Assembly (NCBI GenBank): GCA_024642505.1
Contig: JAHEAZ010000009.1
Coordinates: forward strand, 1-64,000
DNA from: Gammaproteobacteria bacterium
Lineage (GTDB): Bacteria > Pseudomonadota > Gammaproteobacteria > Steroidobacterales > Steroidobacteraceae
Direction of reading: 5' to 3'
Length of the DNA: 64,000 nt
The notes below the pieces were generated by a model. That model saw only the letters and a program-made list of their open reading frames with translations, ran no database searches and was not told where the DNA came from. Positions 3,263 to 35,944 of this stretch are shown in pieces; the stretch's first letter is position 1, and every line of letters begins with the position of its first letter. Both the position numbers and the translations under genes were made by a program.

Positions 3263-4681
3263 TCAGTAGCGGTACTGGTCCGGCTTGAAAGGGCCCTCGG
3301 CGGGGATGCCGAGATAGGCGGACTGTTCCGCGGTCAATTCGGTCAGTCTGGCGCCGATCCTCTCGAGGTGCAGCTTGGCCACTTTCTCGTCGAGGTGCTT
3401 GGGCAGGACATAGACGTCGTTACCATATTTCTTGCCGTGCTTGTGCAGTTCGATCTGTGCCAGCACCTGGTTGGTGAACGAGTTCGACATGACGAACGAC
3501 GGATGCCCGGTGCCGCAACCGAGGTTCACCAGACGGCCTTCGGCCAGGATGATGATGCGCCTGCCGTCCGGGAACTCGACGTGGTCAACCTGTGGCTTGA
3601 TGTTCTCCCAGCGGTACTGGCGCAGCGAGGCGATGTCGATCTCGCTGTCGAAGTGGCCGATGTTGCAGACAATCGCCTGGTGCTTCATGCGGCGCATGTG
3701 GTCGTGGGCGATGACGTTCACGTTGCCGGTGGCCGTAACGAAGATGTCTGCTTGCGGGCAGGCGTCGTCCATGGTCACGACCCGATAGCCTTCCATCGCC
3801 GCCTGTAAAGCACAGATCGGATCGATCTCCGTGATCCAGACAGTTGCCCCGAGGCCGCGCAGTGACTGGGCGCAGCCCTTGCCGACGTCGCCGTATCCGG
3901 CGACGACCGCGATCTTGCCTGCGACCATTACGTCGGTCGCGCGCTTGATGCCGTCGACCAGCGATTCACGGCAGCCGTAGAGGTTGTCGAATTTTGACTT
4001 GGTCACGGAATCGTTGACATTGATCGCCGGAAAGGGCAGCTCGCCTTTCCTGGCCAGTTCGTAGAGGCGCTTGACACCGGTCGTGGTCTCCTCGGTGACG
4101 CCCCTGATGTGCCTCAGGCGGGCGGAGTACCAGCCGGGTTGTGTGGCGAGCCTGCGCCCGATGGCGGCAAAGAGGGCCTGCTCTTCTTCATTGCCAGGCT
4201 TGGCGATGACCGACGGGTCCTTTTCCGCGCGACTGCCCAGCATCAACAGCAGCGTCGCGTCGCCACCGTCGTCCAGGATCATGTTGGCGAACTCGCCTGC
4301 CGGCCAGTCGAAGATCCTGTGGGTGAATTCCCAGTACTCGTCGAGAGTCTCGCCCTTGTAAGCGAATACAGGCGTGCCAGCTGCGGCAATCGCGGCCGCG
4401 GCATGATCCTGAGTAGAGTAGATGTTGCACGAAACCCAGCGGACCTCCGCTCCCAGCGCTTTGAGCGTATCGATCAGCATGGCGGTCTGGATGGTCATGT
4501 GCAGCGAGCCGGCGATGCGGGCGCCCTTGAGCGGCTGTGCGTCCGCGTACTCGTGGCGGATCTGCATGAGACCGGGCATCTCGGTCTCGGCGATGGCCAT
4601 CTCCTTGCGGCCCCAGCCCGCAAGCGAGATGTCCTTGACGTAGAAATCCTGCGTTGATTTTGGGTTCACGACAGCGTTCAT
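3263..4681 (-). CDS. ahcY: S-adenosylhomocysteinase
   Basis: AhcY hydrolyses S-adenosylhomocysteine to homocysteine and adenosine, clearing the product inhibitor of methyltransferases. The 472-residue protein has the family landmarks: the NAD-binding loop [36 protein letters not shown] and the C-terminal PDQYRY. The start is the ATG at 4681, supported by AGGAG 7 nt upstream. The longer open frame to 4729 runs through the riboswitch and should not be used. It lies downstream of metK on the same strand, so the two steps of the activated methyl cycle are adjacent. Its own SAH riboswitch should raise expression when SAH accumulates. Confidence 0.97.
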
Positions 4682-4700
4682 GTCAGTCTCCTGATCATAA

Positions 4701-4773
4701 GAGCGCCGTTGCACGTGAGTCACCCACATTGCCGAGCCTGGCAGGGGCCTTCCCCGTTGCAGCGCTCCTCAGC
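4701..4773 (-). promoter_or_regulatory. SAH riboswitch in the ahcY leader
   Basis: Read on the minus strand, the leader matches the SAH riboswitch consensus: GAGGAGCGCTGCAACG at 4770-4755, CCAGGCTCGGCAA at 4741-4729 and AACGGCGCTC at 4710-4701. Helix P1 can form from GCTGAG (4773-4768) and CTCGGC (4736-4731). The pseudoknot pairs GAGCGC (4767-4762) with GCGCTC (4706-4701). An internal GGGG/CCCC hairpin lies between. The aptamer ends 9 nt before the AGGAG ribosome site of ahcY. This class is known to turn on ahcY when SAH binds. The placement directly before ahcY is exactly as expected. Confidence 0.93.
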
Positions 4774-4780
4774 ACGCGGG

Positions 4781-4803
4781 CTGGCCCGGCTCATCCGGGC
4801 CAG
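4781..4803 (-). terminator. Hairpin between metK and the SAH riboswitch
   Basis: A perfect 9-bp stem CTGGCCCGG/CCGGGCCAG with a 5-nt loop lies 17 bp beyond the metK stop codon and 7 nt before riboswitch helix P1. It lacks a T tract. It may end metK transcripts or insulate the folding of the aptamer. Confidence 0.45.
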
Positions 4804-4819
4804 AACATCCTGTCCGGAT

Positions 4820-6061
4820 TTACTTCAGACCTGCGGCCCTGCGCAATTCCTCTGCCTTGTCGGTCCGCTCCCAGGTGAACGAGGTAAACGTTTCGGAGCG
4901 CTGGATTCCCTTGCCTCCGTTGCGTTCTGTCCACTCGTAGGTGGTCTTCTGCGGCTTGCGACCGAAGTGGCCGTAGGCTGCGGTCGCGCGGTACATCGGC
5001 CGGACCAGGTCGAGCATCTCGATGATGCCGTACGGTCTCAGGTCGAAATGGCCGCGGATCAGCTTCTCCAGCCGCGCGTCGGACACTTTGCCGGTGCCAA
5101 AGGTCTCGACGGTGATCGAAGTCGGGCGTGCCACGCCGATCGCATAGGACACCTGGATCTCGCAACGCTCGGCGAGACCGGCCGCGACGATGTTCTTGGC
5201 CACGTAGCGTGCCGCGTAGGCCGCCGAGCGGTCCACCTTTGAGGGATCCTTGCCCGAGAAAGCCCCGCCGCCGTGACGGGCCGTGCCGCCATAGCTGTCC
5301 ACGATGATCTTGCGGCCAGTCAGGCCGCAGTCGCCGACCGGCCCGCCGATGACGAACTTGCCGGTAGGGTTGATGTGCACCCTGCTGGAAGGCAGCGCGT
5401 CGAGCCACTTCTTCGGCAGCACCGGCTTGAGTATGTGTTCCCTGACGCCTTCACGAAGGTCGCTCTTGCGCACCCCGGGGTCGTGCTGGGTCGACAGCAC
5501 CACCGCATCGAGCCCGGCGATCCTGCCATTCTCGTAGCGGAGCGTGACCTGCGACTTGGCGTCGGGACGGAGCCAAGGTAAGGGTGAGCGGCGCGCCTTG
5601 CGGACCCGCGCCTGCTGCTCGACCAGCCGATGTGAGTAATAGATCGGGGCTGGCATGAACTCGGGGGCCTCGTTGCAGGCAAAGCCGAACATCAGCCCCT
5701 GGTCGCCCGCGCCCTGTTCCTCCGGCCGCTTGCGGTCAACGCCCTGGTTGATGTCGGGTGACTGCTTGCCTATCAGGTTGAGCACGCCGCAGGTTGCACC
5801 GTCGAACCCGACCTCGGAGGACGTGTAGCCAATGTCCTTGATGACGCTGCGCACCAGGTCCTCGAGGTCTACCCAGGCATGTGTCGTCACCTCCCCGGCG
5901 ACGATGGCGACGCCCGTCTTGACCAGCGTCTCGCAGGCCACCCGGGCACGCCGGTCCTGCGCAAGGATGGCGTCAAGAACCGCATCGGAGATCTGGTCCG
6001 CAACCTTGTCGGGGTGGCCCTCGGAGACTGACTCGGACGTAAACAGGTATGACGAGGACAA
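4820..6061 (-). CDS. metK: S-adenosylmethionine synthetase
   Basis: MetK makes SAM from methionine and ATP. Landmarks are [12 protein letters not shown] at the N-terminus, [44 protein letters not shown] and the C-terminal RRAAGLK. With a start at TTG 6061 the protein has 413 residues; it is longer than the E. coli enzyme mainly because of a segment of about 25 residues between GHFGR and WERTDKA. I prefer TTG 6061 (GGAG 5 nt upstream, protein [12 protein letters not shown]) over the TTG at 6097. A perfect TATAAT covers the latter, which would therefore lie upstream of the transcript. It is divergent from tkt and upstream of the ahcY riboswitch. Confidence 0.95.
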
Positions 6062-6096
6062 GGTAGCTCCGTGAGTTTGCTGCCAAACAATCGCCA

Positions 6097-6102
6097 ATTA
6101 TA
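6097..6102 (-). promoter_or_regulatory. -10 element of the metK promoter
   Basis: A perfect TATAAT on the minus strand predicts a start of transcription near 6090 and a leader of about 30 nt to the TTG at 6061. The -35 region is poor (AGCCGT at 17 bp). The complementary strand reads AATTATAG, so a weak outward -10 for tkt could overlap it. Confidence 0.45.
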
Positions 6103-6190
6103 GCGTCACCCGGGCCGGGACGGCTGTTCCTGATTGCCCCCACCCCGCTCGATCGGGGAAAATGGCGGACTCACCATCAGGGGAGCTGGA

Positions 6191-9248
<3,058 letters not shown>

Positions 9249-35448: not shown

Positions 35449-35819
<371 letters not shown>

Positions 35820-35944
35820 ACTTCTCACCACAAATCTGCGCGTTCCACCCTGAAACGTGCTGAACTCTAATAAGCCGCACGAAGTTAGTTCTATAAGTGC
35901 CTGATTTCAGGGCCCCAGAGAAAGCCTGCCGCTGCATGAAAGAT

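Follow-up and report, generated by a model that had tools for sequence, protein, structure and literature searches.

The question raised by this locus is how metK, whose product makes SAM, and ahcY, whose product clears SAH, could be tuned unequally if both genes are read from one transcript. In the following, the window is the whole stretch of DNA that was analysed, 64,000 nucleotides in length; coordinates are window positions, and the features of the metK-ahcY junction lie on the minus strand unless stated otherwise. According to the original prediction, an SAH riboswitch stands ahead of ahcY. Our models indicate that this riboswitch probably raises the translation of AhcY on SAH accumulation by releasing the ribosome site, i.e. 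that it is a translational ON switch. Such a switch suggests how unequal tuning of the two genes could be obtained, and it gives a testable model for the whole class, in which SAH riboswitches release the ribosome site with a partner strand that varies by lineage.

The identity of the element was addressed by covariance search. The Rfam SAH riboswitch model RF01057 matched 4776-4694 with 57.5 bits (E 5.7e-8; gathering score 37 bits), and this was the only match in the whole genome. The alignment is full-length (model 1-78 of 78), with the P1 and P2 helices both present and two non-standard pairs flagged, which bears out the conserved aptamer blocks predicted for the minus-strand leader and gives the proposed Rfam search a positive outcome. 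P1 is read as six pairs, one of them G-U, between GCTGAG (4773-4768) and CTCGGC (4736-4731), also in line with the Rfam alignment. Likewise, the pseudoknot 5' strand GAGCGC (4767-4762) is complementary to the 3' strand GCGCTC (4706-4701), so that both pairings can form as predicted. In the Rfam scan of the window at gathering score, RF01057 and RNase P were found and nothing else; SAM-Chlorobi, SAM/SAH and the remaining Rfam SAM riboswitch families gave no match. By its sequence, the element near certainly belongs to the SAH riboswitch family, and the aptamer is to be seen as an ordinary RF01057 member, thus a new instance of a known riboswitch class.

The pseudoknot is also reflected in covariation among relatives. 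In 96 distinct aptamers, its second pair was A-U in 78, G-C in 10, G-U in 8 and A-C in none, so that the two positions covary (Fisher p 3.9e-9, kinship being ignored). Because the strands were found by pattern, this test asks only whether two variable bases go together. The set leaves out L101 and L108, which do not fit the 5' pattern, and L010, L050 and L128, which do not fit the 3' pattern.

Both neighbouring genes scored above their NCBIfam equivalog cut-offs, which confirms the predicted place of the aptamer ahead of ahcY and beside metK. The methionine adenosyltransferase gene metK (4820..6061) matched TIGR01034 with 586.5 bits (cut-off 309.4), scored on the longer ORF 4820-6097; its likely start, as read from the sequence, is TTG 6061-6059, preceded by GGAG 6070-6067. 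The adenosylhomocysteinase gene ahcY (3263..4681, 472 aa) matched TIGR00936 with 614 bits (cut-off 497.6), with its ATG at 4681-4679 and the SD AGGAG at 4692-4688. Measured from the bounds of the Rfam match, the aptamer lies 43 nt past metK and 12 nt ahead of ahcY. The close spacing to the ahcY ribosome site also stood, although the pseudoknot 3' strand and the SD are 8 nt apart instead of the 9 nt first given.

This spacing points to a common metK-ahcY transcript; against it, one locus of the same genus, L002, has metK 1157 nt away. A separate promoter between metK and ahcY was considered and rejected: two promoter-like minus-strand sites were detected (0.2 expected), one within the aptamer (4723-4694) and one across the ahcY start (4686-4657), neither ahead of the aptamer and both taken as chance. 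As a separate observation by eye, a TATAAT at 6102-6097, about 35 nt before the likely metK TTG and in the short gap to a divergent transketolase-like ORF, is a possible metK promoter; it is absent from the output of the consensus promoter scan.

A possible mechanism was derived from predicted folds around the ahcY start. The SD and the AUG are held together in a hairpin (4678..4700, with the layout UUAUG-A-UCAG-GAGA-CUGA-CAUGA) that starts one base past the pseudoknot 3' strand; in a 26-nt fold of 4701-4676 it has -7.9 kcal/mol, and 1 of 200 shuffles was as stable. A like hairpin was predicted in the six loci of the genus that were folded, where the 5' arms facing the start-codon arm read UUAUG, UUGUG, UCGUG (twice), UUCGUG and UUCA. 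In longer folds of these six loci, the partners of the pseudoknot strand or its neighbours are the first codons of ahcY; L002 and L004 deviate in detail. In the case of the window, the minimum-free-energy folds predict an outer helix (4661..4726) that encloses the SD/AUG hairpin. Its core, ACGGCG 4709-4704 with 4676-4671 (ahcY codons 2-4), overlaps the pseudoknot strand and is extended by 4718-4714 with 4670-4666; core and extension appear in both folds, the outermost segment (4726-4722 with 4665-4661) in one of them only. As modelled, the core helix and the pseudoknot cannot coexist. When the coding part after 4678 was excluded from the fold, the two pseudoknot strands formed their pairing, and the SD/AUG hairpin persisted.

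These folds suggest GCGCTC 4706-4701 as the switching strand. Without SAH, 4709-4704, which takes in bases of this strand and its neighbours and also belongs to the aptamer core, would be paired to ahcY codons 2-4, and the ribosome site would be shut within a long hairpin. With SAH, the pseudoknot would take the strand away, the outer helix would be lost, and the short inner SD/AUG hairpin would remain for the ribosome to open. The aptamer, usually co-transcribed with metK, would act on ahcY alone, and SAH would then raise the enzyme that removes it while the SAM-making enzyme stays unraised. The SAH riboswitch class is described as turning genes on upon binding, and the modelled evidence, in which release is significant over 57 loci and non-significant for the window alone, favours ON as the direction of control. 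Against this reading stands the inner hairpin (-7.9 kcal/mol), which persists in the model of the bound state and could still impede ribosomes. That ahcY codons take part in the switch of the window is a possibility to which, judging by the folds, we give somewhat less than an even chance. About as tentative is the wider proposal that in this group the first codons of ahcY are the partner of the pseudoknot strand on a metK-ahcY transcript, so that coding sequence joins the expression platform, and that across the class lineages have re-invented the partner of the strand (SD, start codon or first codons) around a fixed aptamer.

Ribosome-site release was then evaluated over the class as the cost of opening the stretch from SD through AUG, with the pseudoknot strand either free (ligand-free model) or withdrawn (bound model). 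The segment folded began 5 nt ahead of the pseudoknot strand, reached to 18 nt from the AUG and contained no other part of the aptamer; in the shuffles, the aptamer strand, the SD and the start codon were kept. Tertiary contacts, Mg2+ and co-transcriptional folding do not enter the energies, and the SD-through-AUG measure was adopted after the SD-only result of the whole-aptamer model had been seen. From 108 aptamer loci, four (L010, L050, L057, L128) were dropped for want of a recognised pseudoknot strand or start, nine long-leader loci were set apart from the remaining 104, and removal of near-copies (80% alike) reduced the 95 compact loci to 57 non-redundant ones. Sham strands were placed before two kinds of control sites. 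The first were 23 riboswitch-less ahcY sites drawn from 32 loci, nine having been dropped as near-copies or for lack of a start, an SD or enough sequence; the second were 32 metK sites with a start and a clear SD (at least 4 bases, spacing 4-11), near-copies removed. Because the tests share sequences and several measures were tried, p-values are only guides, and the controls matter more.

In the 57 loci, opening cost 10.22 kcal/mol with the strand free and 6.64 kcal/mol with it withdrawn, a release of 3.57 kcal/mol; the corresponding values for shuffles were 7.26, 5.81 and 1.45 kcal/mol. The ligand-free cost was higher than in shuffles (p 4.9e-10), and release exceeded the shuffle mean in 45 of the 57 loci (p 2.0e-7). 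Shuffling the linker only gave p 1.9e-9 for the cost and 5.4e-5 for release (42/57). The excess was also seen at lower redundancy, with p 4.3e-4 for the cost and 6.2e-3 for release in 15 loci (13/15), and with 7.8e-3 and 1.6e-2 in the lowest-redundancy set of seven (6/7). In 51 of the 57 loci, withdrawal of the strand lowered the opening cost of the ribosome site by 1 kcal/mol or more; in four, release was negative.

The sham strands produced no excess, neither before the 23 riboswitch-less ahcY sites (cost p 0.24, release p 0.15) nor before the 32 metK sites (p 0.996 and 0.40). Compared with the sham strands, the real ones gave a larger excess release (p 0.0038 against the ahcY sites, 0.00024 against the metK sites). 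In three half-swap control sets, the p-values for cost and release were 0.37/0.17, 0.022/0.036 and 0.10/0.37, so that one of the three shows an excess. Without the pseudoknot strand, ribosome sites linked to an aptamer had slightly more structure than their shuffles (57 loci, p 0.012). No such excess was seen at riboswitch-less ahcY sites (23 loci, p 0.71), and metK sites had less structure than shuffles (32 loci, p 0.002). Among the real loci, compared with each other and not with shuffles, release tends to be larger where there is little local structure (Spearman -0.40, p 0.002), as though local structure and strand pairing were two routes to sequestration.

In the case of the window, opening cost 11.2 kcal/mol with the strand free and 7.0 kcal/mol with it withdrawn, a release of 4.2 kcal/mol compared to 2.0 in shuffles. 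Its ligand-free burial lies 2.1 standard deviations above shuffles; its release taken alone is non-significant, 19% of shuffles reaching 4.2 kcal/mol. The modelled window thus fits the class-wide release pattern, yet it is no proof by itself. For the window, the whole-aptamer model, in which the opening of the SD only was counted, showed no release (5.1 kcal/mol for either state); other loci gave a mixed outcome, as seen from individual rows without statistics.

As the switch of the window, a direct duplex between pseudoknot strand and SD (CUCUU/AGGAG, 5 bp by eye) was rejected, since the duplex energy of strand and ribosome site is weaker than in shuffles (z +0.9). Over the 57 loci, this energy was -7.95 kcal/mol for matched partners against a permutation mean of -6.70 kcal/mol, and none of 20000 permutations was as low. 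Within-locus shuffles, however, gave p 0.15, and for this reason direct strand-SD pairing is not relied on here; it appears strong in single relatives, e.g. L012, L023 and L048.

We also considered that the SAH riboswitch acts on the transcript level, by termination, Rho or RNA decay, instead of on ribosome access, which we regard as unlikely. This alternative draws on the long leaders of some distant relatives (e.g. L090, L108, L120, L130), in which the strand can pair, by eye, in a separate downstream hairpin that could serve another kind of platform. In the window, however, a terminator scan of 4600-6250 found two sites (0.9 expected), 4635-4657 on the plus strand and 6105-6092 before metK, and none on the minus strand between aptamer and ahcY. 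Moreover, only 12 nt separate the Rfam match from the start codon, and burial of the ribosome site is unusually strong in compact members. Distinctly less probable is an OFF switch, in which the bound aptamer and the adjacent pseudoknot sterically block the ribosome. The pseudoknot strand does end within the reach of the ribosome, 8 nt before the SD, and direct occlusion is described in a review for SAM-II/V, SAM-III and SAM-SAH riboswitches (PMC10907184). Yet withdrawal of the strand eases opening by 1 kcal/mol or more in those same 51 of 57 loci. The published class is described as an activating one, and more SAH hydrolase at high SAH is the sensible direction. A relic, with the form of the aptamer conserved and regulation of ahcY lost here, is very improbable: close AhcY relatives often differ in aptamer presence (10 changes in 79 labelled proteins), and the aptamer can therefore be gained or lost, but here it is intact at 57.5 bits and the five other searched genomes of the genus all keep it.

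Between metK and the aptamer, the 9-bp hairpin originally described at 4781-4803 exists: it is G+C-rich, lacks a U-tract and folds with -18.8 kcal/mol, a stability reached by none of 200 shuffles. Of the six loci of the genus, the five in which the stretch after metK was inspected (L001, L004, L009, L011, L015) all have it; the sixth is L002, with metK 1157 nt upstream. Relatives with the order metK-riboswitch-ahcY, L018, L024, L030 and L005 among them, where the aptamer follows 13-16 nt past metK, have no such hairpin, and other relatives show, by eye, different hairpins or none after metK. The role given to it, that of separating metK from ahcY and letting ahcY be tuned apart, found no support. 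An insulator role is weakly founded because there is no U-tract and because several relatives have just 10-16 nt after metK; moreover, a translational switch located 3' of metK would act on ahcY alone, and the hairpin is therefore not needed. It may shape the 3' end of metK, and we found no ground for naming it an insulator.

The distribution of the riboswitch was followed in several samples. It was found in 32 of 59 genomes of a search among relatives (the genome of the window counted), in all six searched genomes of the genus (own included), in 154 of 369 genomes of a class sample, and in 48 of 80 named loci with close AhcY, with 17, 10, 10 and 11 in successive batches of 20. Judged by AhcY, the closest named relatives are uncultured Gammaproteobacteria and a Steroidobacteraceae bacterium. 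From contig number and length, L062 appears to duplicate L009, and L065 to duplicate L003. Gene order was counted in non-random samples. Of the 32 matches of the relatives' search 30 were counted, and 29 of these have metK upstream of the aptamer (28 within 300 nt). The same order is seen for 25 of the 30 best-scoring class loci, 22 of them with metK within 300 nt, and for 24 of the 48 named aptamer loci, 21 of them within that distance. Almost all of the remaining 24 named loci belong to Burkholderiales, and in some rows the absence of metK is uninformative because little upstream sequence is available (about 100 nt in L053, 1 nt in L073). Between the metK stop and the aptamer there are 10-16 nt in L018, L024, L030, L005, L069, L095 and L099, a gap too small to hold a promoter or terminator.

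Loci without an aptamer showed a similar gene order, with metK upstream in 27 of 32 named loci, 18 of these within 60 nt. An aptamer hidden at these riboswitch-less junctions was rejected, the gap of at most 60 nt in 18 of the 27 being too short; longer junctions were judged by eye. In a quick tree of 81 AhcY proteins, 79 of them labelled, the presence of the aptamer needs 10 changes, about 6 or 7 of which are forced by the starred branches alone; the tree gives these changes without direction, so that gain and loss look the same. Because 27 of the 32 aptamer-less loci keep metK and because the label changes 10 times, the aptamer looks, from these sequence comparisons, like an element that can be removed from between the two genes of a conserved metK-ahcY pair.

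Compared to known systems, the element shares with the SAH riboswitch RF01057 the full-length match, P1, P2, the pseudoknot and the place before ahcY. The aptamer shows no visible difference; here it is intergenic with metK directly upstream. In a published survey, the SAH riboswitch precedes ahcY in every genome covered, and metK is not under its control (PMC4239095), which agrees with a switch placed after metK. The same survey reports metF in the ahcY operon of all SAH-riboswitch lineages but Xanthomonadales (PMC4239095); in this genome, the single metF match lies on another contig (C33). A likeness exists to the SAM-Chlorobi motif (RF01724), which precedes operons with metK and ahcY (PMC2864571), but that motif is a different RNA family without a match here at gathering score. 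The SAM/SAH riboswitch (RF01727), a small aptamer that binds SAH and also SAM (PMC2864571), differs in that it belongs to Rhodobacterales and lies upstream of metK, and it too had no match here at gathering score. In the part of the open literature that our search covered, with the founding papers of the class outside its reach, there was no account of a metK-riboswitch-ahcY junction and no class-wide test of the expression platform. Since those founding papers may well describe ribosome-site release, no novelty is claimed for the mechanism.

Several further observations were made along the way. In the long leaders (L090, L107, L108, L120, L126, L130, L063, L043), the distance from strand to start codon is 71-114 nt, and the strand with its 3' flank has, by eye, a complementary downstream copy (in L090, GCTCGCCTCT/AGAGGCGAG); perhaps these leaders use another type of expression platform. 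In a different set, nearly all from Burkholderiales (L068, L070-L073, L075-L078, L083, L086-L088, L094, L106, L117, L121, L125, L127, L129, L134 and L138-L141), bases between SD and start codon can pair with the last part of the pseudoknot strand. The two words seem, by eye, to vary in concert, being CTCACG/CGTGA in most of the set and CTCGC/GCGAG in L117 and L138. Two Natronospirales contigs without a riboswitch match, L080 and L084, carry an ORF-like insertion between metK and ahcY (gaps of 473 and 438 nt), which by eye we take to resemble a small four-helix-bundle gene. The contigs L122 and L132 are labelled Anaerolineae (Chloroflexota) and their AhcY groups with proteobacterial ones, pointing to transfer or to mis-binned contigs. 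Lastly, the window holds an RNase P RNA of bacterial class A at 35450-35822 (334.7 bits).
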